A program made the position numbers and the translations under genes. Below the pieces are notes generated by a model that ran no database searches, was not told the origin of the DNA, and saw only the letters and a program-made list of their open reading frames with translations. From Promicromonospora sukumoe (GTDB lineage: Bacteria > Actinomycetota > Actinomycetes > Actinomycetales > Cellulomonadaceae): a stretch of DNA of 64,000 nucleotides. Positions 6,524 to 63,974 of this stretch are shown one piece after another. Positions within the stretch are counted from its first letter, which is position 1, and each line of letters begins with the position of its first letter. The stretch lies in contig NZ_JACGWV010000001.1 of NCBI RefSeq assembly GCF_014137995.1, forward strand, positions 2,790,001 through 2,854,000, in the 5' to 3' direction.

Positions 6524-7954
6524 TCATAGGGCGGCCAGCGTCGCCCGCGCCCCGACCCGGTGCAGGGAGTCGAGCGCGTCGAGGTAGGGCTCGACGAAGC
6601 GCGGCTCCTCCACGAGCGACCCGAACAGCATGGGGCTGCGCAGGAACGCGAGCGGGTCGGTGCGCTGCGAGCGGGCGAGCGGGACCAGCCGGTCGGCGAG
6701 CCGGTCGACCACCTCGATCGGCTCGCCCTGCTCGTCGACCCCCTCGGCGTACCGCGCCCAGCTCGCGACGACCGCCGCCGACCGGGTGACCTCGCCGCCC
6801 GTGCGGAGCTGGTCGCGCACCAGCGGGACCAGGAACTTGGGGATGCGGTCCGACGTCTCGGAGCCGAGCCGGGCGAGCGTGTCTCGCACCTCCGGGTTGC
6901 CGAAGCGCTCCATCAGGGTCGCCTTGTACTCCTCCAGGTCGACGCCGGGCACCGGCGCCAGGGTCGGCGTCGCCTCGCGGTCCATGAAGTCGCGCACGAA
7001 CCGCGCCAGGTCGGGGTCCGCCATCGCCTCGTGCGCATAGCGGTGGCCGGCCAGCCGGCCGAGGTAGGCCATGGCCTGGTGGCTGGCGTTCAGGAGCCGC
7101 AGCTTCATCAGCTCGTACGGCTCGACGTCGGCCACGAGCTGGACGCCCGCGTGCTCCAGCGGGGGCCGGCCGAGCGGGAACCGGTCCTCCAGCACCCACT
7201 GGAAGAACGGCTCGGCCACCACGGGCCAGCGGTCCTGGACACCGAAGCGCTCGGCCACCAGGGCCCGGTCCGCCTCGGTGGTGACGGGCGTGATGCGGTC
7301 GACCATCGAGCTCGGGAACGCGACGGCGTCGTGCACCCACCGGCCCAGCTCCGGGTCGCGCAGCCCGGCGAAGGCCGCGAAGACGGCGCGCGCCATCTCG
7401 CCGTTGCCCTGCACGTTGTCGCAGGACATGACGGTGAACGGCGGCAGGCCGCGCGTCCGCCGTCGGGCCAGGGCCTCGACGACGAACCCGAACACGGTGG
7501 TGGGTACCGCCCCGGGCCGGGCGTCGGCGACGACGTCGGGCGCGCTCGTGTCGAACGCGCCGGTGACCTGGTCGAAGTTGTAGCCGCCCTCGGTGATGGT
7601 GAGCGACACGATGCGGGTGTCCGGGTGGGCCATGCGCTCCAGCACGGCCTCCGGGTCGTCCGGCGCGAACAGGTACTCCACGATGCTGCCGACGACCCGG
7701 GCGTCGAGCCCGCCGTCGGCGTGCTTGGTCACCAGCGTGTACAGGCCGTCCTGGGGCCGCAGTGCGTCGCGCATCGCGGCGTCGCCGGGCAGCAGGCCGA
7801 CGCCGCAGATGCCCCACTCGCGCGCCTCGCCGCGGCGCAGCAGCTCGTCGACCGCGAGCGCCTGGTGCGCGCGGTGGAAGCCGCCGACGCCGAGGTGCAC
7901 GATGCCGGTGCGGATGCCCGCGCGGTCGTACGGCGGGGCGGCGAGGTCGAGCAT
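6524..7954 (-). CDS. Mannitol-type (long-chain polyol) dehydrogenase
   Basis: 476 aa, the usual size for the family (about 450-500). It oxidises a sugar alcohol such as mannitol, arabitol or sorbitol to the ketose with NAD+. The N-terminal NAD fold has VHLGVGGFHRAHQ (19-31), the family signature FPSSMVDRITP lies mid-protein, and the catalytic motif KLRLLNASH has the expected Lys-x4-Asn-x2-His spacing. The ATG at 7954 lies 2 bases after the upstream permease stop; a GTG at 7960 giving a GTGA overlap is possible. Last gene of the polyol operon, so it supplies the first catabolic step after uptake. The exact polyol is not decidable. Confidence 0.92.
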   Translation of the reverse strand: MLDLAAPPYDRAGIRTGIVHLGVGGFHRAHQALAVDELLRRGEAREWGICGVGLLPGDAAMRDALRPQDGLYTLVTKHADGGLDARVVGSIVEYLFAPDDPEAVLERMAHPDTRIVSLTITEGGYNFDQVTGAFDTSAPDVVADARPGAVPTTVFGFVVEALARRRTRGLPPFTVMSCDNVQGNGEMARAVFAAFAGLRDPELGRWVHDAVAFPSSMVDRITPVTTEADRALVAERFGVQDRWPVVAEPFFQWVLEDRFPLGRPPLEHAGVQLVADVEPYELMKLRLLNASHQAMAYLGRLAGHRYAHEAMADPDLARFVRDFMDREATPTLAPVPGVDLEEYKATLMERFGNPEVRDTLARLGSETSDRIPKFLVPLVRDQLRTGGEVTRSAAVVASWARYAEGVDEQGEPIEVVDRLADRLVPLARSQRTDPLAFLRSPMLFGSLVEEPRFVEPYLDALDSLHRVGARATLAAL

Positions 7955-7956
7955 CG

Positions 7957-8775
7957 TCACTTGATCGCCCCCATCGCGAGGCCGCGCACGAGCTGCTTCT
8001 GGGCGATCCACCCGGCGAGCACCACCGGCACGATCGCGACGGTCGCCGCCGCGGACAGGACGGCGAGGAACTGGCCGCGGCCGTCGACGAAGCTGGTGAG
8101 GAACGGCGGGGTGGGGCGCGCCACCTGGGCGGTGAGGAGGTTGGCGAGGAAGAACTCGTTCCACGCGAAGATGAAGCAGATCAGGCCGGCCGCGGCGACG
8201 CCGGGCAGCACGATCGGCAGCACGACGCGGAAGATCTCGGTGCCGAGGCGGGCGCCGTCGAGCTGCGCGGCCTCGATGACCTCGCGTGGTACCTCGGCGA
8301 GGAACGACCGCATCATCCAGACGGCGATGGGCAGGTTGACGCCCACGTAGAGGATGGTCAGCCAGGTGATGTTGTCGAGCCCGCCCACGGACTGGAGCAG
8401 CAGGTAGACCGGGATGATCGAGGCGGCCACGGGCATGAAGCGGGTCGAGATGAAGAAGAACAGGGCGTCGCGCACGTTGGTGACCGGCCGGATGCTCAGC
8501 GCGTAGGCGGCGGGGATCGCCAGGGCGAGCACCAGCAGCGTGGACCCGAGGCTCGCGCTGAACGAGTTGATCAGGTACGGGAGCATGTCGCGCGCGAAGA
8601 CGGCGTCGAACCGGTCGAGCGTGAAGTCGGGGGTGAAGGTGGGCGGCATGGTGGCGGCCTGGTGCTCGGGCTTGAACGCCGTGAACACCATCCACGCCAC
8701 GGGGAAGAAGAACATGAGCACGAGCACCCAGGTAGCCGCGGTGATCAGGGCCCCTCGAAGGCGCGAGGTGGTCAT
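7957..8775 (-). CDS. Sugar ABC transporter permease, MalG/UgpE type
   Basis: 272 aa, six predicted membrane helices. The EAA loop contacting the ATPase reads EAAQLDGARLGTEIFRVVLP, characteristic of CUT1 carbohydrate importers, and the protein ends in QKQLVRGLAMGAIK as MalG-type permeases do. It overlaps the preceding permease by 4 bases (ATGA), implying a stoichiometric heterodimer. Together with the binding protein it imports the substrate of the downstream dehydrogenase, presumably a polyol. Confidence 0.94.
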   Translation of the reverse strand: MTTSRLRGALITAATWVLVLMFFFPVAWMVFTAFKPEHQAATMPPTFTPDFTLDRFDAVFARDMLPYLINSFSASLGSTLLVLALAIPAAYALSIRPVTNVRDALFFFISTRFMPVAASIIPVYLLLQSVGGLDNITWLTILYVGVNLPIAVWMMRSFLAEVPREVIEAAQLDGARLGTEIFRVVLPIVLPGVAAAGLICFIFAWNEFFLANLLTAQVARPTPPFLTSFVDGRGQFLAVLSAAATVAIVPVVLAGWIAQKQLVRGLAMGAIK

Positions 8776-9716
8776 CGGTCGATCCCTTCCTTGGAGAAGA
8801 CCTTGAAGAGGGTGCGCAGCGCCACGGAGGCGACGACGATCGTGACGAGCACGGTCATCACGCCGTACGCGGCGGCCTCGCCGACCTCCAGGCCGACGAA
8901 CGCCCGCTCGTAGAGCAGGTAGGACAGGGTCTTGGTGCCGCCCGTTCCGCGCGTCATGATCGCGATCGGGTCGAAGACCTGGAGCAGCATGATCGAGGCC
9001 AGCAGCACGGCGATCTCGACGTACTGCCGCAGGTGGGGCAGCGTGATCTCGCCGAAGGTGCGCAGGGCGCCCGCGCCGTCGACGGCGGCGGCCTCCAGCA
9101 CGTCCTTGTCCTGGGCCTGCAGGCCGGCGAGCAGGATGAGCATGACGAACGGCGTGTACTGCCAGGTCAGCACCAGGATGATGGTGACCATCGGCAGCTC
9201 GGTGTTCCACGCCACGGGCGGCAGGCCGAGCAGCCCGAGGCCCCAGTTGGCCATCCCGGTGGACGCGTCGAGGATCGACCACTTCCAGACCAGGGCCGCC
9301 GCGGCGGGCATGACGAGGAACGGCGTGATCATCAGGGTGCGGGCCAGCCCGCGGCCCACGAACTTGCGGTCGAGCAGCACCGCGAACAGCATGCCGAGCA
9401 GCGTCGAGACGACCACCGCGGTACCGGTGACGGCGACGGTCGCGCCGAGCGAGGACAGGAACGACCCGTCGCGCAGCACGCTCACGTAGTTGTCGAGGCC
9501 CGTGAACCCCCGGTCGCCGGGCCGGAGCATGTTCCAGCTCTGCAGCGAGTAGTAGATGGTCAGCAGGAACGGGATCTGGGTCAGGACGATCGAGGTGGCG
9601 AGCGCGGGCCACAGCAGGGCGCGCGACACGGCCAGGCGGTGCCGGTGGCCCGCCTGCCCTGTCTGCGGCGCCCGCCCGGGCCGACGGCGCGTCGGGGCGG
9701 ACATCAGAGCGGTCAT
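8772..9716 (-). CDS. Sugar ABC transporter permease, MalF/UgpA type
   Basis: 314 aa, an N-terminal basic tail followed by six predicted helices. The EAA loop reads EAAAVDGAGALRTFGEITLP. The ATG at 9716 is preferred over another in-frame ATG 18 bases upstream because AGGAGG sits at ideal spacing before it. The strong hairpin at 9757-9791 separates it from the binding-protein gene upstream, which would let the binding protein be made in excess over the permeases. Confidence 0.93.
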   Translation of the reverse strand: MTALMSAPTRRRPGRAPQTGQAGHRHRLAVSRALLWPALATSIVLTQIPFLLTIYYSLQSWNMLRPGDRGFTGLDNYVSVLRDGSFLSSLGATVAVTGTAVVVSTLLGMLFAVLLDRKFVGRGLARTLMITPFLVMPAAAALVWKWSILDASTGMANWGLGLLGLPPVAWNTELPMVTIILVLTWQYTPFVMLILLAGLQAQDKDVLEAAAVDGAGALRTFGEITLPHLRQYVEIAVLLASIMLLQVFDPIAIMTRGTGGTKTLSYLLYERAFVGLEVGEAAAYGVMTVLVTIVVASVALRTLFKVFSKEGIDR

Positions 9717-9756
9717 GTGGCCCTCCTGGGGCACGAAGTTCCTCGGGAACGAGGAA

Positions 9757-9791
9757 CCCGGGTGCGGGGAGTACGGCTCCCCGCACCCGGG
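9757..9791 (-). terminator. 15-bp perfect hairpin between binding protein and permease genes
   Basis: CCCGGGTGCGGGGAG, loop TACGG, CTCCCCGCACCCGGG. It lies 6 bases past the binding-protein stop codon, inside the operon. No U-tract follows. By analogy with the malE-malF intergenic hairpins it may be a partial terminator or 3' stabiliser that raises the level of binding-protein mRNA. Confidence 0.7.
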
Positions 9792-9797
9792 GTCCGG

Positions 9798-11174
9798 CTA
9801 TTTCTGGGCGTCGCCCGCGTCCTGGGCGAGGTCCTGGGCGCGGTCGAGCACGGGTCCGAGCTCGCTGCGGCCGGCGAAGACGTCGGCCAGGTCCTGCGAG
9901 ACCTGGTTGCCGAGGTCCTGGAACTCCGGGATGGTCACGTACTGGATGCCGGTCCACGACTGCGGCGCGACGCCCGGCTGCTCCGGGTTCACGGCGAGCA
10001 TGATGTCCCGGGTGATGGGCGCGAACGAGGCCGCGGCCTCCTCGTACTCGGGGACCTCGTAGGTCGAGTTGCGCGCGCCCGGGGGCACGCGGCTCCAGCC
10101 GAGCTCCGTGCCGACGAGCTGGTGGTACTCCTTGCTCGTCGCCCACTTCACGAACTCGACCGCGGCGTCGCGGTTCTGCGTGGTCTCGGGGATGGCGAGG
10201 TTCCACGACCAGAGCCAGCCGGACTCCTCGGTCTCGACGACGGGCGCGTGGGCGTAGCCCATCTTGCCCGCGACCTCGGAGGACTCGGGGTCCTCCAGCA
10301 GGCCGGCGGCGACCGTGGCGTCCACCCACATCGCGGAGCGGCCCTGGCTCACGTTGTTCAGGCACTCGGTGAACCCGGTGGAGACGGGGTCGGCCGGCCC
10401 CGCGTCCTCGACGAGGTCCACGTAGAACTGCACGGCCTCCTCGAACTTCGGCTGGTCCACCTGGGCGTTCCACTCGGCGTCGAACCAGCTCCCGCCGAAC
10501 GTGTTCACCACCGTCGTCAGGGGCGCGAAGACCTCGCCCCAGCCGGGCTTGCCGCGCAGGCAGATGCCGTCGACGTCGTCCGAGTCGACCTGGCGCGCGA
10601 TGTCCGCGACCTCCTGCCACGTCGGGTGCTCGGGCATCGTGACGCCCGCCTCGTCGAGCAGCTCCTTGTTGTACATCAGCATCGAGGACTCGCCGTAGAA
10701 CGGGACGGCGTACAGGGAGTCCTCGACCGTCAGCGCGTCCTTGACGGGCTCGAACAGGTCGTCGACGTCGTAGTCCGCGTCGGACTCCAGGTCGCCCGTC
10801 AGGTCGGTGAGCCAGCCGTTCCCCGCCCAGATCGGCACCTCGTACGAGCCGACGGTGACGATGTCGTACTGCCCGCCGTCGGTCGCGACGTCCTTGGTGA
10901 CGGCGTCCCGGAGGTCGTTCTCCTCCATCTGGACGAAGTTCACCGTGATGTCGGGGTGCTCCTCCTCGAAGGAGGACTTCAGCTCCTCCATGTCCTTCAT
11001 CTGCGGGTTGTTGACGGTCGCGAGCGTGAGCTCGACCGGGCCGCCGTCCTGTCCGGCGGCGTCGCCGTTCCCGCCGCCTCCCGCTCCGGCGCAGGCGGTC
11101 AGCGTCAGGGCCAGCGCCACCGCCGAGATGCCGGCGGGCGCGGCCTGGCGGCGCGCAGTTCTCGTGAGCTTCAT
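9798..11174 (-). CDS. Sugar/polyol ABC transporter substrate-binding lipoprotein
   Basis: 458 aa, extracellular solute-binding protein family 1. A twin-Arg-like basic start (MKLTRTARRQ), hydrophobic core and lipobox LTAC (cysteine near 28) show it is a membrane-anchored lipoprotein, followed by a Gly-rich linker and the bilobed domain beginning VELTLATVNNPQMKDMEEL. The ATG at 11174 is chosen because the signal peptide starts there and AGAAGGG lies upstream. It captures a polyol or sugar for the two permeases. No ATPase is encoded in the operon, so a shared MsiK-like ATPase elsewhere is expected. Confidence 0.93.
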   Translation of the reverse strand: MKLTRTARRQAAPAGISAVALALTLTACAGAGGGGNGDAAGQDGGPVELTLATVNNPQMKDMEELKSSFEEEHPDITVNFVQMEENDLRDAVTKDVATDGGQYDIVTVGSYEVPIWAGNGWLTDLTGDLESDADYDVDDLFEPVKDALTVEDSLYAVPFYGESSMLMYNKELLDEAGVTMPEHPTWQEVADIARQVDSDDVDGICLRGKPGWGEVFAPLTTVVNTFGGSWFDAEWNAQVDQPKFEEAVQFYVDLVEDAGPADPVSTGFTECLNNVSQGRSAMWVDATVAAGLLEDPESSEVAGKMGYAHAPVVETEESGWLWSWNLAIPETTQNRDAAVEFVKWATSKEYHQLVGTELGWSRVPPGARNSTYEVPEYEEAAASFAPITRDIMLAVNPEQPGVAPQSWTGIQYVTIPEFQDLGNQVSQDLADVFAGRSELGPVLDRAQDLAQDAGDAQK

Positions 11175-11475
11175 TGCTTCGACCCTTCTGGTCACGTCGT
11201 CGTGAGGTCTCGTCGTGCCGCACATCGTGGGCCGCGCCGCCAGGGGGGTCAACGAGGGTGAAACCGAAACGGTCAGCCGCACTGTGATATCGCACAGGCG
11301 CGCCCGGCCGGGCCGGGTCCGGCTCCGGGCGCGCGCGGGTCACGCGCGGGCGTATGGCCGACGCCGGGGTCCGATCTGCCCGGTTCTGGGCCACCCCCGC
11401 GCGTCGGAAAACGCATCCCGGACCGGGCACCAACTGCTCCGCCCGGAGGGCCGACCGGTCACGCCCGGAGGCGCC
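11175..11475. promoter_or_regulatory. Intergenic control region, polyol operon
   Basis: 301 bases between the DeoR gene and the binding-protein gene. Two features stand out: GGGTGAAACCGAAAC at 11256-11270, with a related element in the DeoR promoter at 12331-12350, and CTGTG-N6-CACAG at 11282-11297. Either could be the operator of the DeoR protein. The remainder shows no gene. Confidence 0.45.
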
Positions 11476-12276
11476 TCAGACCTGGACGATCTCCGCCCCG
11501 GCCGCGTGGAACGCCCGCGCGCGGGCGTGGCCGAGCTGCGTGCCGGTGATCATCGCCTCGAAGTCGTCCAGCCCGGCGAACCGCACGAAGCTGGTGACGC
11601 CGAACTTGTGGTGCGCCCCGATGAAGATGCGCCGCCGGCTCACCTCGATCGCGGCGGCCTTCACGCGCGCCACCGCCGGGTCCGGCGTGGTCAGGCCGTC
11701 CTCGACGGTCACGCCGTTGGCGCCGATCAGGCCGAGGTCGAGGCGGAACGTGCGCAGCATGTCCACGGCCGTGCCGTCGACGACGCCCAGCGTCTTGCCG
11801 CGCACGCGCCCGCCGATGATGATCACCTGCACGTTCGGCCGGGCCGACAGCTCGGTCGCGACCGGCAGCGAGGAGGTGACCAGGGTCAGCTCCCGGTCGT
11901 GCGGCAGCGCCCGCGCCGCCAGCAGCGGCTGGAACCCCTCGTCGACGAAGATCGTGCGCGCCTCCCCCAGGCGCCGCGCCACCTCGGCGGCGATCCGCGA
12001 CTTCTCCTCCGGGTAGCTCTGCTGCCGCTCCGAGAGCGCCGTCTCGAACGAGCTCGTCTCCACCGGGAACGCCAGCCCGTAGCTGCGCCGCACCAGGCCC
12101 TGCGCCTCCAGCTTGCGCAGCTCGCGGCGCACCGTCTCCTGCGAGACGCCCAGCATCCGCGCCGACTCGCTCACCTCGATGCGGCCGCGCCGGCGCACCA
12201 GCGCGAGCAGCTCCGCGGACCGCGAGGTCTGCCCGACGGCGCTCGCCGGCGCCGTCCCGGGGGTGTCGAGCACCAT
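11476..12276 (-). CDS. DeoR family regulator of the polyol operon
   Basis: 266 aa. N-terminal DeoR helix-turn-helix (about 20-75) with IEVSESARMLGVSQETVRRE, then the DeoRC sensor domain (about 95-250), including the phosphosugar-site-like stretches VDEGF and GANGVTVEDGLTTPD. DeoR proteins repress sugar and polyol operons until a phosphorylated sugar binds. Here it precedes the transporter-dehydrogenase operon on the same strand after a 301-base gap with operator-like repeats. GGGAG lies just before the ATG. Confidence 0.92.
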   Translation of the reverse strand: MVLDTPGTAPASAVGQTSRSAELLALVRRRGRIEVSESARMLGVSQETVRRELRKLEAQGLVRRSYGLAFPVETSSFETALSERQQSYPEEKSRIAAEVARRLGEARTIFVDEGFQPLLAARALPHDRELTLVTSSLPVATELSARPNVQVIIIGGRVRGKTLGVVDGTAVDMLRTFRLDLGLIGANGVTVEDGLTTPDPAVARVKAAAIEVSRRRIFIGAHHKFGVTSFVRFAGLDDFEAMITGTQLGHARARAFHAAGAEIVQV

Positions 12277-12330
12277 CGCCTGCTCCCGTCGTCGGGCTCC
12301 TGGGCCCCCGAGTCTGCCGCGTACCGGCGC

Positions 12331-12350
12331 ATTTCGGAACCCGTTTCACC
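12331..12350. promoter_or_regulatory. Candidate DeoR autoregulatory site
   Basis: ATTTCGGAACCCGTTTCACC lies upstream of the deoR start (12276). Its reverse complement shares GGTGAAAC and CCGAAA with the element at 11256-11270 upstream of the binding-protein gene. TTTC-rich half-sites are common in DeoR-family operators. Confidence 0.4.
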
Positions 12351-12368
12351 CGCCCGAGGTGTGCGGCG

Positions 12369-13763
12369 TCAGCCCGCGAGCAGCGCACCCCGCGCCGCGC
12401 TCGCCAGCGCCTCGGCCAGCTCCTCGACCCGTTCCGGGTCGGCCGGGATCTGCGGCGTCGCCACACGCAGCCACGCGGGGCGCGGCGGCGTGGCGAACGT
12501 GCGCGACGACGGCGTGAGCACGATCCCGCGCGCCCCGAGCTCGACGAGCGCCTCGTCCTCGTTCTCGGCGCGCAGCCACACGACCAGGCCGCCCGGGGGT
12601 GTCGCGGTGCGCACGTCCCGCGCCTCGAGCGCCCGCGCGAGGTCCCGGGCGCGGTCGGCGTACCAGCGGCCGGAGTCCGCCACGAGCGTCGCGACGCCGG
12701 GGGTGGCGAGCAGGTGGGCGAGCGCGTTCTGCAGGATGCGGCTCTGGGCGAGGATGCCGTGGCTGCGCAGGCGGCGGACGCCGAGCACGACGTCGCGGGC
12801 GCCGCCGACGACGGTGGTGCGCAGGTCCAGCCCGAACGCGCGGCAGAACGACGTGATCCGCACGACCCGGCCGGGCAGCAGCTCCCCGAGGCTCGGCGGC
12901 CGCACGGGGGCCAGCGGGCCGAGCACGTCCTCCTCCAGCACCCAGGCGTCCGGCGCGTGCTCCGCGAGCACCGCCGCGAGCTCGCCGAGGCGCCGCGCGG
13001 TGACCGCGCCGTCGAGCGAGAACTCCCCGCCGGGCTGGTAGACGAAGGTCCGCGCGCCCGCGGCGAGCGCCCGCTCCAGCGCGTCCGGGAGCGGGCCCTC
13101 GGCGTCGGAGGCGACGCCCACGACCTCGAAGCCGACCGAGCGCAGGTTGCCGATCGTGCCGGAGACGGCGGGCTCCTGGACGGCGATGGTGCCGCCCGGC
13201 GCGGTGGCCGCCTCGGCGGTGAGCAGCGTGGCCTCGCCCGCGCCGCTGACGGTCACCCACTCGGCGGCGTCGAACGGCCAGTCCTGGCGGACGGCGTCGA
13301 GCAGCGCGGGGGTGATCGCCTCGCGGCGCAGCGAGTTGGTCTGGGGCTCGCGCAGGCTGTGTGCGAAGGCCTCCAGCAGGTCGGGCAGGCGGTCGGTGGT
13401 GGGGTGCGCGGACGAGAGGTCGACCGACGACCAGCCGGCGAACACGGGCGCCTCCCCCGCGCGGGGCCACAGCGGCGGGCTGACGGGGCCGGCGACGATC
13501 GTGCCGCCGCGGCGGCGGGTGGTCACCAGGCCGCGGTCCACCAGGAGCGACCAGGTGCCCGCGATGGTCGAGCGGCCGAGGCCGGACGCCGTCGCGACCT
13601 CCTCGATCGTGGGCAGCCGGGTGCCGGGCGCGAGCACGCCCTGCTCGATCCAGGTGGTGAGCTGCTCGGCGAGCGCCGGGCCGGACAGCCCGCGCACCGA
13701 GGCGATCAGTTCGGTCGGCGTGCCCGGGGTGGCTCTCGCGGTGTCGGGTCCGGTGGTCGTCAT
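12369..13763 (-). CDS. MocR/PdxR-type regulator (GntR HTH + aminotransferase-like) lacking PLP lysine
   Basis: 464 aa. GntR winged helix (about 28-92; VATASGLGRSTIAGTWSLLV) fused to a fold-type I aminotransferase-like domain (about 110-460). The segment that normally holds the PLP Schiff-base lysine as SFSK reads ITSFCRAFGLDLR, so Lys is replaced by Arg308. The preceding Asp motif (LEEDVLGPL) is kept, but the Tyr often found after it is Val. The ATG at 13763, with GAGGGG ahead, is preferred over an upstream in-frame start lacking a ribosome site. It is divergent from the amidase/ABC/hydantoinase operon, its likely target; direct repeats at 13870-13891 suit this family. Confidence 0.9.
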   Translation of the reverse strand: MTTTGPDTARATPGTPTELIASVRGLSGPALAEQLTTWIEQGVLAPGTRLPTIEEVATASGLGRSTIAGTWSLLVDRGLVTTRRRGGTIVAGPVSPPLWPRAGEAPVFAGWSSVDLSSAHPTTDRLPDLLEAFAHSLREPQTNSLRREAITPALLDAVRQDWPFDAAEWVTVSGAGEATLLTAEAATAPGGTIAVQEPAVSGTIGNLRSVGFEVVGVASDAEGPLPDALERALAAGARTFVYQPGGEFSLDGAVTARRLGELAAVLAEHAPDAWVLEEDVLGPLAPVRPPSLGELLPGRVVRITSFCRAFGLDLRTTVVGGARDVVLGVRRLRSHGILAQSRILQNALAHLLATPGVATLVADSGRWYADRARDLARALEARDVRTATPPGGLVVWLRAENEDEALVELGARGIVLTPSSRTFATPPRPAWLRVATPQIPADPERVEELAEALASAARGALLAG

Positions 13764-48031: not shown

Positions 48032-48050
48032 AGAGGTAAGCCTAACCTTA
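48032..48050 (-). promoter_or_regulatory. IdeR/DtxR-type iron box
   Basis: The minus strand reads TAAGGTTAGGCTTACCTCT, about 16 of 19 positions as in the consensus TWAGGTTAGSCTAACCTWA, starting directly upstream of the siderophore ATPase gene. Iron repression of the 44.0-48.0 kb operon is therefore likely. Confidence 0.75.
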
Positions 48051-48125
48051 TGTCCGGAGTGCTCCGGTGGCTGTCTCATTCCTCACCCGCTGCCCCACGG
48101 GCCGGTCGATGTCGGACTGTCCACG

Positions 48126-48139: not shown

Positions 48140-49639
48140 ATGAGCACAGCCACCGTGGAGGGAGCGTACGAAGGTGCGCTCCGAGCGTTCAAGAACCCGA
48201 TGCTGGACCTGCTCCACGGGACGTACGCGCCGTTCGTCGTGACCATGCTGGCCCTGGTGTTCACCGCGCAGCGGTCGCAGGTGCCCGTGGCCGACGCGCA
48301 CGCCGAGATCGACGCGGCGCTCGGCCGCCTGCGCGCGGCCGGGTACGGCGAGGAGGGCAACGCGCCCCTGCCCGTCGGCAGCTCGCGCGACCTGTGTCGC
48401 GGGTGGGTGCGGTCGGGCTGGCTCAAGCGCCACGTGCAGGACGGCGTCGAGGTCTACCAGGTCTCCGCGCACGGCGTCGGCGCCCTGGAGGTCGCGGGCC
48501 GCGTCGGCGGCGCCCGCACCCGGGTCTCCGAGTCGCGCGTGCGGACCCTGCTCGACGCCGTCGAGGAGCTCGCGCAGGACGCCGACCCCGACGTGCTGTC
48601 CCGGATCGCGCGGCTCGACGCCGAGATCAAGGAGCGCACGGCCGAGGTCGATCGGCTGGAGCGCACCGGCGCCGTCGAGCCCGTGGGCGACGACCAGCTC
48701 CTGGAGGAGGCGGAGAACGTGCTGCACCTGGCGCGTGAGCTGCCCGCCGACTTCGCGCGCGTGGTCGAGTCGATCAAGCAGGTCCAGCGCGACGTCGTCA
48801 CCGACCTGCGGCAGGACGTGCGCCCCACGGGCGAGGTGCTGCGCGAGTACCTGGCGCGCGGCAAGGACATCATGGAGTCCACGCGCGAGGGCCGCGCCTT
48901 CGCGGGGGCGCTCGCGCTGATCGGCCGCGCCGAGCACATCGACCAGCTCGCCGGCAACCTGCGGCTGATCCTCGGGCACCCGTTCGCCGAGCAGCTCCCC
49001 GCGGCCCAGCGCCGCGAGCTGCACGAGATCGCGCGGCGCATCGAGCGAGGGGTGCGGGAGGTGCTGCACGCGCAGCAGACGGCCTCGCACGTCATCACCA
49101 CGCAGATCCGCAACCACGACCCGCTGCGCGACCGGGAGGTGGACGGGCTGCTGCGCGACGTGATGTCCGGGTTCCAGCGGTGGATGCCGACGTCGCGGCA
49201 CAAGCAGCCGGTCGAGCCGATGCGGCGCCTGCCCGTGGCCGACGTCGGGCACCTGCGCCAGAAGGCGGACGGCCTGCGCCCGCCCGCACCGCCGACACCG
49301 CTGGAGGCGTGGGAGATGGGCGCGGTGCCCGACGACGACTCCCGGGCCTGGGGCGGCCCGCACTACGCCGACCTGGAGAAGCACCTCGCGGGGAGGCCGC
49401 GCGAGGACGACGGGACCGTCGACGTCGGCGCGGCGTTCCGGTCGGCGCCCGAGCGGATGCGGCGGCCCGTCGACCTGCTGGGCCTGCTGGAGATCGCGCA
49501 CCGGCACGGGATGGTCGAGACGGACGAGGTGGTGACCGTCGAGGCGGTGCGGCCGGACGGGACGCGGCGGCGCTTCGCGTTCGGCGGGGTGGCGATGAGG
49601 GACGAGCACGAGGACGAGGGCGGGACGACGGATGACTGA
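48140..49639 (+). CDS. jetA: JetA / MksF-like kleisin subunit (DUF3375)
   Basis: 499 aa. Matches DUF3375, the kleisin-type subunit of Wadjet/MksBEF SMC complexes: N-terminal winged-helix-like part ([34 protein letters not shown]), a long helical middle (about 150-330) and a C-terminal domain ([17 protein letters not shown]). Its role is to bridge the JetC heads and recruit JetB in a DNA-loop-extruding complex. ATG 48140 begins the conserved region; no ribosome site. Overlaps jetB by 8 bases. The C-terminus ends in an acidic EHEDEGG tail. Confidence 0.88.
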
Positions 49640-50309
49640 GACGGTGGCTGACGAGGTGGGGACGGACGAGGCGGGCTTCATCGAGCCCGCGCCCATGGAG
49701 GACGACCAGACCGAGCTCTTCGCGGGCGACCGCGGGCTGCTCGACCCGGAGGTCCGGCGGGTGCTGGTCCGCCTGCTGCAGCGCCGCTTCCTGACGGCGG
49801 AGAAGAACCGCGCGCAGTGGAAGACGCTCCTGGAGCACCAGTCGGTGATCGAGTCGCGCCTGCACGACCTGTTCGTGCGGCTCGTCGTGGACCACGACCG
49901 CGGCATCGCGTACAAGCAGCAGGTGCGCTCGGGCGAGGTGGACGTGCCGATCCTCCTGCGCGACGACCCCTACAACCGGGTCGAGACGCTCGTGCTGGTC
50001 CACCTGCGCACCGTGTACCAGCACGAGGCGAGCTCGGGCGAGACGTCCGCGCGGATCGACCTGGAGGACATCGAGCAGGGCGTGCTGACGTTCTTCGACC
50101 TGGACGACAACAACCTGTCGCGCCCGCAGCGCGAGATCCGCGACGCCGTCGGCCGGCTGGCGTCCGAGGGCCTGATCGACGAGGAGTCGACGGGCCGCTA
50201 CCGCATCACCCCGCTCGTGGAGGTCGTGCTCGACAACAACCGGCTCGCCGAGCTCACGCGCTGGCTCGCCGGGGACAAGCTCGCAGGAAGCAAGGAGACC
50301 CGTTCGTGA
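49632..50309 (+). CDS. jetB: JetB / MksE-like subunit (DUF4194)
   Basis: 225 aa. DUF4194 (MksE/MukE-like) winged-helix protein: [40 protein letters not shown] and [16 protein letters not shown] are the recognisable family stretches, and the C-terminal winged helix includes [20 protein letters not shown]. It binds the JetA kleisin and DNA. Overlaps jetA (8 bases) and jetC (GTGA), so the three are coupled. Confidence 0.88.
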
Positions 50310-53300
50310 GCATGATCGAGACGCTCTGGGGACTCGTCCCGGCCACGTCGACCGGGCAGCAGTGGGTGGCCCGGACCCTGCAGCTCGTGAACTGGGGCGG
50401 CTACCACGGGCACCACCACGTGCACCTGTCCCCCGGCGCCACGCTGTTCAGCGGCGGCTCCGGGTCGGGCAAGTCCACGCTGATGGACTCCTACATCGCG
50501 CTGCTCATGCCACACACCACGCCCTTCAACGGCGCGTCCAACGGCGGTGTGACCGGCAAGCCGCGCGGCAAGGAGCAGCGCAACATCCTGTCCTACGCGC
50601 GCGGCAAGCTCGACGAGAAGCGGGTCGACGGCGAGACCCGGGTCCGGGTGCTGCGCGGCGAGAAGGAGGACACCTGGTCCGCCATCGCGATGACCTGGGT
50701 GGACCAGGGCGGCGCCACGTTCACGGCCGTGCGCGCCTGGTACGTGCCGTCGTCGGCCCGGACGCTGGAGAACGTGATCGCGGTGCGCGGCACGTACGAC
50801 GGTCCGTTCGACCTGACCGGCCTGGAGGAGGCGGCCCGGCACCGGTTCGACCGCCGGGCCGTGACCCGCACGGGGCTGACCTGCTTCGACACCGACCGGG
50901 ACTACACCGCCCGGCTGCACACCGCGCTCGGCATCGGCGCCGGGGGCGACGGGCACAAGGCCGTGGGCCTGCTCGGCCGTATCCAGGCCGGGCAGCAGAT
51001 CACCACCGTCGACGCCCTCTACAAGACGATGGTGCTGGAGGAGCCCTCGACGTTCGCCACGGCCGACGGCGCGGTGCAACAGTTCGACGAGCTGTCCGCC
51101 ACGCGTGACCGGATGGTCACCGCGCGGCAGCAGGTCCGCGCGCTGCGGCCCGTCCGCGAGCACCGTGCCGCCGTCGACGGCGCCGTCGAACGGCTGCGCC
51201 TGATCGACGCCGCCGGGCAGTTCTCGGACCCGGCGTCCCCGGCCGCGCTGTGGCTGGCGGGCCGGCGGCTGGACCTGCTGCGCGCCTCGGAGGCCGACCT
51301 CCAGCGCCGGCGCGCCCGCGCCCGGGACGAGTCGACGGAGCTCGCCGCCCGGGTCTCGGCGGCCAAGCTGGAGCGGGACGCCGCCCGCGACCTGCTCGGC
51401 GCGGCCGGCGGCGACCGGCTGAAGAAGGCGCAGGAGGAGGTGGACCGGCTGGAGGCGCGGGTCGAGCCCGTCGCCGCGGCCCGCGCCCGCTTCGACGCCC
51501 TGCTGTCCGACGTCGGCGCCGAGGTGTCGGACGCCGCCGGCTTCGACGCCGTCGTCGAGCAGGCGCACCGCACCCTGAACGACACGGACGCCCGCGCGGC
51601 CGCGCGGCGCCGGTTCACCGAGGCAACCCTGGCCGAGAAGGCCGCCACGGAGGCCTTGGAGAACCTGCGCGCGGAGCTGCGGACCGTCACCGCGCGCAAG
51701 GACAACATCCCGACCGACCTGCACCGCGCGCGTACCGCGCTGGCCGAGGCAGCGGGCCTGTCCCCCGACGAGCTGCCGTTCGTGGGCGAGCTCATCGAGG
51801 TGCGCACCGAGTTCGAGCCGTGGCGCGACGCGTTCAATCTGGCGCTCGGCGGCTTCGCGACCGAGATGCTGATCGACGTGGCGCACCTCAAGGCGTTCCG
51901 CACGGCGATCAACTCCGTGCCCACCGCGCGCCGCATCCGGTTCCGGGGCGTGCCCACCGGGCGCCGCGACGAGGTGGCCGTCGAGGACCGCACCCTGCCC
52001 GCGCGCCTGGACCACCGGCCGACGCCGTTCACGGGCTGGCTCAAGCAGGAGCTCGCCGACCGCTTCGGCTACGTCTGCATCGACTCCCCCGCGCAGTTCG
52101 CCCTGCACCGCAAGGCGGTGACGCTGGCCGGCCAGACGTCGGACGGCGGACGCGGCGCCCACGGCGGGCGCGGCGTGACCAACGTGCTCGGCTTCTCCAA
52201 CGCGCGCCGCCTGCGGGAGCTGCAGGCCGCCGTCGCCGACGCCGAGGCGGCGCACGCCGAGGCCGAGGCCGCGCTGGAGACGGCGGAGGCGGGCCTCGAC
52301 TCGTTCGAGAGGCAGCGCGGCGCGTACGAGAAGATCGCCGACCTGGCCTGGGAGCAGGTCGACCTCGGGGCCCTGCGCACCGAGCTGGCCCGCTGGACGG
52401 CGATCGTCGAGGAGGTCACCTCCGACAACCCGGAGATCGGGCGGCTGCGGCGCGAGCTCGGCACCCTGGAGGACCGGGTCACGCGGCTGACCGAGGAGAG
52501 CGGCGTCGCCAAGTCGCGCGCCGGCGACCTGGAGGCGGCCTGGGAGCGCACCGCCGACGCCGTCGACACCGCGCAGCGCACGCTGGACACGGCCGAGGAC
52601 GACGGCACGCAGGTGGCCCCCGAGCACCGCGAGTACCTGGGGGCGCTGTTCCCGGGCGCGGAGGGCACGGAGGGCTCCCCCGCCCAGGTCGTCGAGCGGT
52701 TCGACGCCGCGCTGGAACGGGCCACGGCCCGGGTCCGCGAGGACCAGGCCGAGGCGCAGGCCGCCGTCGGCCGGGGCCGGGACGCCCTGCACACCGTCTT
52801 CGAGACGTTCAAGGAGCGGTGGCCCAACCCGAACCTCGGCGTCGACCCGGACACGTCGTACGACGACTACGAGCGGTTCCTGACCGACCTGGAGAAGAAC
52901 GGGCTGCACGAGCTGGAGTCGGAGTGGCGCGACAGCCTGCTGCGGCTGTCCGGGGCGGACCTGACCAAGCTCGACAGCGACATCTCGACGGCCGTGCGCG
53001 AGATCCGCGACCGCATCGACCCGGTCAACCGCATCCTCGACGGCCTCGACTTCTCCGACGCGCAGCACAAGCTGCACATCGAGCTGCGCGACACCGCATC
53101 CCCGGTGCGGTCCCGGTTCCGCGCCGACCTGCGGGGCGTACGCGAGGCGATCGCGAGCGCCGTCAGCGACACGGACCGCCAGCGGGCGTACACCCGCATG
53201 GCCAAGGTGGTCGACCGCGTGCGCCGCACCGCCCCGGAGTTCCACGACCTGATCGACGTGCGCAACCACGTGCGGATCAGCGCCGAGAAGCTCACCAAGG

Positions 53301-53680
53301 ACGGCGCGCACGTCGCGGTCTACGACCACATCGGCGAGAAGTCCGGCGGCGAGTCGCAGGAGCTCGTGGCGTTCATCGTCGGCGCGGCGCTGCGCTACCA
53401 GCTCGGCGACGCCGGGGCCGAGCGGCCCCGGTACGCGCCGGTCTTCCTCGACGAGGCGCTGATCAAGGCTGACGCCCACTTCACGGGGCGGGCGATCAAC
53501 GCCTGGCGCGGGCTCGGTTTCCAGCTCATCATCGGCGCGCCCAACGACAAGCACAGCGGCATCGAGCCGCACGTCGACGCGGGGTACATCGTGCTCAAGG
53601 ACACGAGCGGCAAGTCGTTCACGCAGCTCACGGTGGGGTTGCCGGACGAGGCGCCGGTGCCGGACGGGGCGCCGGTGTAG
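50306..53680 (+). CDS. jetC: JetC / MksB-like SMC ATPase
   Basis: 1124 aa. Walker [10 protein letters not shown] at 50-58, a long helical middle with coiled-coil segments (about 290-470 and 640-900) around a small hinge-like region (about 510-640), then signature SGGE at 1013-1016 and Walker B VFLDEA with Asp1049-Glu1050. This is the MukB/SbcC-like ATPase of Wadjet and MksBEF. GTG 50306, with AAGGAG upstream, overlaps the jetB stop. The last residues are an imperfect repeat [12 protein letters not shown]. The Toprim nuclease JetD that usually follows is absent; the next gene is an unrelated GH43 on the other strand. Confidence 0.92.
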
Positions 53681-53696
53681 CCGGCGCCTCGTCCGG
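53642..53696 (+). terminator. 18-bp tandem repeat and hairpin at the jetC end
   Basis: CCGGACGAGGCGCCGGTG (53642-53659) is repeated with one change at 53660-53677, and CCGGCGCCTCGTCCG (53681-53695) is their reverse complement. The second copy pairs with it around the TAG stop (14 of 15, loop TGTAG); the first copy could pair perfectly instead. Probable terminator of the jet operon. Confidence 0.55.
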
Positions 53697-53706
53697 GGCG
53701 GGCCGG

Positions 53707-62415: not shown

Positions 62416-63081
62416 CTAGGAGTCCAGCCCGTCGAGACCGTCGATCATGTCGAGGTCCGGCAGGTGCGGCGCCAGCGGGGGCAGCTCGTCGAGCGACGAG
62501 AAGTCCATCCGCTCCAAGAAGTATCCCGTGGTTCCGAACAGAACCGCACCCGAGCTCGGGTCCTGACCGATCTCGGCGATCAGCCCGCGGGTCAGCAGGG
62601 TCCGCACGACGCCGTCGACGCTCACGCCGCGGACCGCACTCATCTGGCCACGCGTCACCGGCTGACGGTACGCGATCACGGCGAGCGTCTCCAGCGCGGC
62701 CTGGCTCAGCTTCGACGACTGGCCGTCCAGCACGAAGCGCCCGACGGGGTCCGCGTGTGCCGTGGAGGAGTAGATGCGCCACCCGTCGACCGTCCGGCGC
62801 AGCTCGAAGCCGCGCGGGCGGGACCCGAGGTGGCCGGCGTACTCGTCGGCCAGCTCGTGCAGGATGTCGTCGGTCTCGTCCTGCGTCAGGTTCAGCGCGG
62901 CCGCGATGCGGTCCGCGCCGATCGGCGCGTCGGCCACCATGAGCACGGCCTCGACCGCCGCGTGCGCGCCGCCCGGGAGCGTGTGCACGTCGACGAGGAC
63001 CTGCTCCTCCGGCGCGGGGCCGGCCGGGACGCCCGCCTGCGGGGCTTCGGGGGCCTGCGGGGCCTGTTCCTCGACGGTCAT
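62416..63081 (-). CDS. scpB: Segregation and condensation protein B
   Basis: 221 aa. Two winged-helix domains (VDVHTLPGGAHAAVEAVLMV to about residue 95; SKLSQAALETLAVIAYRQPV to about 185) as in ScpB, then a short acidic tail. Forms with ScpA and SMC the chromosome-organising condensin. The Glu/Ala/Pro-rich first 28 residues are unconserved. ATG 63081 overlaps the scpA stop (ATGA). Confidence 0.96.
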   Translation of the reverse strand: MTVEEQAPQAPEAPQAGVPAGPAPEEQVLVDVHTLPGGAHAAVEAVLMVADAPIGADRIAAALNLTQDETDDILHELADEYAGHLGSRPRGFELRRTVDGWRIYSSTAHADPVGRFVLDGQSSKLSQAALETLAVIAYRQPVTRGQMSAVRGVSVDGVVRTLLTRGLIAEIGQDPSSGAVLFGTTGYFLERMDFSSLDELPPLAPHLPDLDMIDGLDGLDS

Positions 63082-63974
63082 GCTGTCGCCTCCGTTCCGG
63101 GCTGCTCGGTGTCTGCCTGCTCGGCACCTTCGGGCGCCGCCGCCGGCAGGTCGTCCTCGTCGAACTCGCCCGGGCCGGCCGCCGGGTCGAGGTACTTCTC
63201 GCCGTCGCCGGGCCCTGCGGTCCACCGCACCGTCAGCTCGCCCAGCGGGGTGACCTGCTCGAACCCGACCAGCGCGTCGCGGAACAGCTCCAGCAGCGCC
63301 AGGAACCGGGCGACGGTCACGAGCCGCTCCGTGCCCGCCGTCAGCGACCGGAAGGTCACGGAGTGCTCGGCGCGCAGGCGCTTGACGATGACGCCGGCCT
63401 CCTCGCGCACGCTGACCGCGGAGCCGTGCAGGTGGGCCAGGCCCACCACGGGCGGCGGCTTGGGCGCCAGCACCTTCGCGGCCAGCTCCGCGAGCCGCTC
63501 CGGCGTCGTGTCCCAGACCAGCTCCGGGAGGATCGCGGCCAGGTGCGGCTCCAGCGGCGCCAGGCGGGGCACGCGGCGTCCCGACGACGCCATCTGGTCC
63601 GCGAGGACCTTCGAGACCTCCTTGTACGCGCGGTACTGCAGGAGCCGCGCGAACAGCAGGTCGCGGGCCTCCAGCAGCTCCAGGTCCTCGGCGTCCTCGT
63701 CGACGACGCCGGGCAGCAGGCGCGCGGCCTTGAGGTCGAGCAGCGTCGCGGCGATCACCAGGAACTCGCTGGCCACGCCGAGGTCCCAGGACTCGTGCAC
63801 CTCGCCGCGGTCGGCGGCCTCCCGCGAGGCCCGCTCGGCCTCGCGGATGTGCGCGACGAACTCGTCGGTCACCACCGCGAGCGCCACCTCGGTGACGTCC
63901 ATCTGGTGCTTCGCGATCAGCGACAGGAGCAGGTCGAACGGGCCCTCGAAGTTGTGCAGCCGCACCTGGAACAT
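63078..63974 (-). CDS. scpA: Segregation and condensation protein A (start possibly outside)
   Basis: 298 aa from the ATG at 63974. Kleisin of the SMC-ScpAB condensin: N-terminal domain MFQVRLHNFEGPFDLLLSLI, IKxx-type AKHQMDVTEVALAVVTDEFV, middle LLQYRAYKEVSKVLADQMAS, and the winged helix RFLALLELFRDALVGFEQ with a Glu/Ala/Asp tail. The frame stays open to the window edge and the codons before 63974 (PAERASSR) could be coding, so the true start may lie beyond 64000. Confidence 0.93.
   Translation of the reverse strand: MFQVRLHNFEGPFDLLLSLIAKHQMDVTEVALAVVTDEFVAHIREAERASREAADRGEVHESWDLGVASEFLVIAATLLDLKAARLLPGVVDEDAEDLELLEARDLLFARLLQYRAYKEVSKVLADQMASSGRRVPRLAPLEPHLAAILPELVWDTTPERLAELAAKVLAPKPPPVVGLAHLHGSAVSVREEAGVIVKRLRAEHSVTFRSLTAGTERLVTVARFLALLELFRDALVGFEQVTPLGELTVRWTAGPGDGEKYLDPAAGPGEFDEDDLPAAAPEGAEQADTEQPGTEATA

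Follow-up and report, generated by a model that had tools for sequence, protein, structure and literature searches.

Genes and features at the jet locus

The window (the whole 64,000-nucleotide stretch of Promicromonospora sukumoe DNA that was analysed) was found to contain a three-gene jetABC operon (Table 1), in which jetA and jetB overlap by 8 bp and jetB and jetC by 4 bp. The product of jetA was found to contain DUF3375 (Pfam, E 7.5e-113) and that of jetB DUF4194 (Pfam, E 3.5e-42), and JetB also passed the Pfam MksE family (PF21980) with 8.6e-7 and 29.9 bits against a cut-off of 27. JetC matched the Pfam families SbcC_Walker_B (4.5e-22), AAA_29 (1.8e-19) and MukB N-terminal (7.2e-6). The best PADLOC models of JetA, JetB, and JetC were those of type I, each matched nearly end to end, with 680 bits for PDLC00464 (JetA1), 349 bits for PDLC00473 (JetB1), and 1573 bits for PDLC00517 (JetC1). 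The window JetC also matched the solved JetC chains 8as8, 9qxt, 8dk2, and 8dk1, and JetB gave no match to the solved structures. The ATPase motifs of JetC were found to be intact, with GSGKST in Walker A, SGGE in the signature, and LDEA in Walker B. The conserved LFAGDRG stretch of JetB is, as a guess, the published IFDR motif. The original prediction of three tightly overlapping DUF3375, DUF4194, and SMC genes with all three ATPase motifs intact was right in its coordinates and gene calls, with Pfam and PADLOC in agreement, and the operon is confirmed as a type I JetABC.

Table 1. Positions of the jet genes, motifs, and neighbouring features in the window
Feature	Position	Strand	Basis or remark
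jetA (kleisin, DUF3375; MksF-like)	48140..49639	+	Pfam, PADLOC
jetB (KITE protein, DUF4194; MksE-like)	49632..50309	+	Pfam, PADLOC
jetC (MukB/MksB-like SMC ATPase), 1124 aa, GTG start	50306..53680	+	Pfam, PADLOC, solved structures
JetC Walker A, GGSGSGKST	50453..50479	+	motif reading
JetC ABC signature, EKSGGESQ	53336..53359	+	motif reading
JetC Walker B, APVFLDEAL	53435..53461	+	motif reading
JetB LFAGDRG, conserved stretch	residues 29-35		motif reading
Strong hairpin over the jetC stop codon, where jetC and GH43 converge; probably a bidirectional terminator	53642..53696	.	z -4.8
26-bp gap between jetC and GH43, at the jetD start position of JetD-bearing relatives	53681..53706	.	locus comparison
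scpB	62473-62961	-	within about 10 kb of jetABC
scpA	63222-63920	-	within about 10 kb of jetABC

The jet site lies between an iron-uptake-type ABC operon on one side and, as had been predicted, a GH43 gene (PF04616, 3e-55) directly after jetC on the opposite strand. The hairpin at the 3′ end of jetC had a folding energy of -60.9 kcal/mol and none of 200 shuffles was equally stable; the predicted hairpin was thus found, but its reading as a terminator is just likely because no T run was present downstream. A palindrome resembling an iron box was observed at about 48034-48052, in the stretch that separates jetA from the divergently oriented gene for an iron-uptake-type ATPase; it could put jetA under iron control.

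A second JetD-less JetABC operon was found in the same genome (L102; G000:C1:785000-803000, positions 6586-13081, minus strand), with JetA1 PDLC00460, JetB1 PDLC00481, and JetC1 PDLC00518 as its best models. Its SMC protein has an insert rich in Ala, Thr, and Val and, at the C terminus, a tail of ~260 residues rich in Gly and Pro. Matches of this kind, with 28-34% identity to the window JetC and mostly in two pieces, were found in 13 of the 13 genus genomes.

Search for a JetD nuclease

The genome searched for JetD comprises 6.5 Mb in four contigs and is 98.8% complete. Neither PF09983 (JetD_C) nor PF11795 (DUF3322) was found to match anywhere in it, and among 14 control genomes both matched one, that of Corynebacterium glutamicum. 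A profile made from 16 JetDs of relatives also found none in the genome. With a second JetD profile, run against the six-frame translation of the window with E values as high as 10 admitted, no trace of jetD was found; this profile recovered 20 of 20 JetDs in loci outside its training set with E <=5e-45, and jetD fragments and scraps scored weaker on it, down to 2e-10. No jetD remnant was found in the 26-bp gap after jetC. The predicted lack of jetD beside jetABC therefore holds for the window, and the genome-wide search with DUF2220/DUF3322-type profiles, which had been named as the check on it, returned no JetD. The suggestion that JetD is encoded elsewhere found no support from three profiles over this genome, and a JetD acting in trans from the own genome was rejected on the same grounds.

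Distribution of JetABC with and without JetD

A JetC-like match was found in 66 of the 99 genomes (own and relatives) and JetD in 22, of which 21 lie among the 66, so that no JetD was found in 45 of the 66 JetC genomes. JetD was present in one genome (L117, G078) that contained no JetC-like match at the threshold used. At an identity threshold of 44%, 36 JetC relatives were counted in the 99 genomes, with the split matches of G009, G039, and G047 each entered once, and four of them (G003, G008, G031, and G047) have an adjacent jetD. The genomes of 29 of the 32 JetD-less relatives contained no JetD that could be found, and the other three (G007, G026, and G036) contained a JetD elsewhere.

A class-wide sample of 296 genomes contained 54 full-length jetA places. 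At 22 of them JetD was found no more than 9 kb downstream; the other 32 had none there, and for 25 of these no JetD was found in the whole genome. The 54 places were taken from 68 rows, 14 partial or weak ones being omitted, including that of G167 with jetA in two frames and JetD downstream. For JetD, 25 strong rows of 36 were used, and the 11 partial or weak rows omitted all fall outside the genomes that were scored as having jetA but no JetD anywhere. The presence of JetA, JetB, and JetC was verified at 20 of 20 and a further 6 of 6 (L235-L240) JetD-less places, as well as at the window, L102, L142, L143, and L164; at the remaining JetD-less place, in G070, jetA and the JetC match are ~13 kb apart.

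JetABC without JetD is thus common among these actinomycetes and the nuclease-free state is the commoner one, contrary to the rarity implied by the original prediction (4/36 and 22/54 being JetD-bearing). Membership of an SMC family that never has JetD, which had been named there as grounds for refutation, does not agree with the nearest jetD-bearing relative, Promicromonospora sp. AC04 (L033, G003), whose JetC is 76% identical and is followed by an adjacent jetD. JetABC matches by themselves do not justify the annotation of an active Wadjet defence.

Remnants of jetD and same-site comparisons

Pieces of jetD were detected in five JetD-less loci. L058, L066, and L068 were found to retain just the first 26, 42, and 33 residues of JetD, respectively, the first 12 of which lie within the jetC overlap, and L063 and L096 were found to retain C-terminal pieces. 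Compared with L046, the Actinomadura loci L056 and L063 lack ~1.1 kb, the missing stretch ending at different points in the two; in L056 jetD apparently kept its beginning and its final portion, as seen by eye at a locus unflagged by the scrap search.

Promicromonospora G008 was found to contain jetABCD at one site common to several Promicromonospora genomes. Relative to it, both flanks aligned in G004, G012, G011, and G002 and the jetD stretch (~1.3 kb) was missing, and G007 kept the flanks on both sides with a longer stretch missing. The first jetD codons were apparently kept in G002, again by eye and not flagged by the scrap search.

The window's subtype was present at the window's site in just four of the 13 genus genomes (G000, G006, G010, and G009), and G001 and G005 contained no first-type JetC. 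No jetD scrap was found in the window group (the window, P. sukumoe L031, and MEB111 L032). The match of the window to the AC04 locus was confined to jetABC(D), with differing flanks. The window's site in G012 was occupied by other genes, which inspection by eye suggested to be a regulator of the LacI type and two oxidoreductases, and the jet genes therefore moved there or were replaced there. In P. kroppenstedtii (G009; L085 and L093, the same as L187 and L186), jetC was found split into two pieces, each on its own contig, and the flanks were rearranged, which is either a broken gene or an assembly fault. Another JetD-less operon (L209, G300) contained jetC in two frames and is possibly decaying.

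Phylogeny of JetC and JetD

For the JetC tree, 158 JetC-like frames were reduced to 138 of sufficient length and 119 distinct loci, of which 39 were labelled with JetD, five with scraps, and 75 without JetD; L056 was counted as JetD-less there, its jetD ends having been spotted later. On this tree, made by a quick search, the JetD label had to change 19 times, and well-supported branches forced 18 of these changes. The class-wide JetC tree of 87 rows, also from a quick search and leaving out L209 (jetC in two frames) and L234 (JetC absent from the stretch), required 17 changes, 13 of them forced.

The JetD tree of 41 rows, made by a careful search and leaving out L227, agreed with the JetC tree in its main groups, with a support of 99/96 for the crown group and 100/100 for the crown, its nearest group, and L155 together. 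On the whole, jetD therefore travelled with jetC. An exception is the JetD-bearing L231 (G141), whose JetC lies inside a JetD-less group (94 support) and whose JetD branches elsewhere; a regain of jetD or recombination is possible at this locus. A correlation of JetC and JetD identities (0.62, 66 pairs) was set aside in favour of the trees, its L131 row being a wrong fragment.

Because the two trees agree, jetD is absent from sites shared with jetD-bearing genomes, and scraps of it lie in near relatives, the most likely history is one of repeated jetD loss with retention of the motor. The deepest crown-group branches of the JetC tree are without JetD, so parsimony alone leaves the direction of change at depth unfixed, and loss as against gain is less sure for the deeper branches. 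For the window's very lineage, which keeps no scar, we infer a loss of jetD.

Selection and conservation

In the comparison of the window with P. sukumoe L031 and MEB111 L032, dN/dS was 0.17 and 0.08 for jetA, 0.13 and 0.08 for jetB, and 0.22 and 0.17 for jetC, respectively, all of them inside the span of 0.06-0.32 seen for six genes nearby. For close jetC pairs the median was 0.112 where both members are JetD-less (34 pairs, overlapping and not independent, of several Jet subtypes) and 0.173 where both are JetD-bearing (10 pairs). At loci with jetD scraps the jetC median was 0.283 between remnant loci (3 pairs) and 0.231 between remnant and JetD-bearing loci (14 pairs), which could reflect mild relaxation just after loss. 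Values for distant pairs were discarded, as was the all-pair median that they distort (0.324 with JetD, 230 pairs; 0.987 without, 1883 pairs), because in genomes this rich in GC dS reaches saturation near 0.5-0.8. The jetABC genes are thus under purifying selection among JetD-less sisters, and the earlier view that this is not simple decay agrees with three intact genes, dN/dS well below 1, and a window copy free of any sign of decay.

The GKS of Walker A, the SGG of the signature, and the DE of Walker B were invariant in the 64 JetD-less jetC rows counted. The LFAGDRG stretch of JetB was conserved both with and without JetD; loss of a 'JetD-docking' motif of JetB in JetD-less loci was considered and not seen, the motif being kept.

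Long flanks were examined at 12 deep-branch JetD-less loci, 10 of which contained the same upstream gene, with LeuRS domains in the member tested, as is expected from vertical descent at a fixed site. In an earlier locus set, Pfam identified the common neighbours tested as LeuRS, DegV, a histidine kinase, a response regulator, and, in one close group, a small P-loop protein. The gene clusters common to 20 further JetD-less loci were JetC (20), JetA (18), and JetB (14), the JetB figure being due to misses of the simple gene caller, as JetA, JetB, and JetC were present in 20 of 20 by profile. No further gene was common to more than four of the 20; the next cluster occurred in four loci at scattered places, and a conserved replacement gene after jetC was thus rejected. 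A borrowed nuclease accordingly has no candidate next door. Of the three explanations first offered for the lack of JetD, a nuclease-free condensin fits best, and neither a JetD elsewhere nor a borrowed nuclease gained ground.

Proposed function and alternative explanations

With a confidence slightly above even, the operon is taken to be a type I Wadjet reduced to its motor by loss of jetD in this lineage, forming a nuclease-free, MksBEF-like SMC complex with a chromosome-directed role. In the excerpted text of two papers (PMC12647877, PMC10586767), dimeric JetABC extrudes the plasmid and JetD then cuts it, from which it follows that the remaining JetABC should be a bladeless loop extruder. 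By this analogy the complex of the window would extrude DNA: powered by ATP hydrolysis, its JetC dimers would work with the kleisin JetA and the KITE protein JetB to reel DNA into loops, and extrusion would end without a cut where JetD is absent. Its job would be on chromosomal DNA, in organisation or segregation beside Smc-ScpAB, rather than in defence. Such a role is held likeliest because the genome contains Smc (C1:842612-846415), ScpA, and ScpB, as P. aeruginosa has Smc beside MksBEF. Against it count the patchy presence of this copy in the genus, its split state in P. kroppenstedtii, and the complete MksBEFG of C. glutamicum, which plays no part in organising the chromosome (PMC7083940).

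The operon may instead still serve plasmid or phage defence, with JetABC trapping small circles and either compaction silencing them or a nuclease or topoisomerase encoded elsewhere taking over. The window proteins are close to those of complete type I Wadjets (PADLOC), the N-terminal stretch of JetB is unchanged, and three of the 32 JetD-less relatives above the 44% threshold contain, next to a different JetC, a JetD that could act in trans. We consider this unlikely, though second in rank, as no JetD was found anywhere in the genomes of the other 29, no widely common extra gene followed jetC in the 20 further loci, and plasmid cleavage is said to require jetD (PMC12287153).

A dead defence remnant, in which jetD was recently lost and the decay of jetABC is yet to come, would account for the split jetC of P. 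kroppenstedtii, for the jetC of L209 that reads in two frames, for a site that varies within the genus, and for the higher jetC dN/dS at scrap loci. It is improbable for the window operon in view of the dN/dS values between JetD-less sisters, which are far below 1 and comparable to those of the neighbouring genes, the invariant GKS, SGG, and DE residues, and the common upstream gene of deep JetD-less branches. The reverse history, in which nuclease-free JetABC is older and JetD was gained in scattered lineages, draws on the JetD-less deepest crown branches and on L231, which may be a gain. The shared main groups of the JetD and JetC trees and the jetD scraps in five JetD-less loci speak for loss in the recent events, and scattered gain is given as little credence as the dead remnant.

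The wider claim, that the actinomycete type I Wadjet has repeatedly become a nuclease-free SMC complex through the loss of one gene, with nuclease-free forms outnumbering complete ones, stands in our judgement at an even balance. If it is true, selection would maintain JetABC for a task other than plasmid cutting, perhaps even in the complete systems, and the conversion of defence to condensin would be recurrent, ongoing, and catchable in closely related strains. What JetABC does in the absence of the nuclease is directly testable in the pairs G008/G004 of Promicromonospora and Actinomadura sp. GC306 (L046)/A. livida (L056).

Comparison with known systems

MksBEF was reportedly described in a 2011 paper. 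In the text seen of PMC10586767, MukBEF and MksBEF are suggested to be Wadjet descendants, the P. aeruginosa MksBEF by loss of JetD. Both the MksBEF family and the idea that it arose when JetD was lost are thus already published, and the recurrent pattern of loss is the interesting part of the present analysis: the step was seen here many times, with jetD scraps and close jetD-bearing relatives. No report of repeated JetD loss in actinomycetes was found in the excerpts of the open-licence papers searched.

The window operon resembles the type I Wadjet (JetABCD; EptABCD; the MksBEFG of C. glutamicum) in its JetA, JetB, and JetC families, gene order, and overlaps, but differs from it by a genome without a detectable JetD/MksG nuclease. 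It shares with the MksBEF of P. aeruginosa a three-gene kleisin-KITE-SMC operon, the lack of a nuclease, a coexisting Smc-ScpAB, and the MksE profile match. A chromosome role of MksBEF is reported for P. aeruginosa in the excerpted text of PMC10586767, and that of PMC7485682 has both Smc and MksBEF acting on the chromosome, whereas the window operon is likened to it by gene makeup and profile. With the MukBEF of E. coli a distant kinship is found in the MukB N-terminal Pfam match (7.2e-6), but the window JetC is nearer to solved JetC (1.8e-47) than to MukB chains (9.1e-5).
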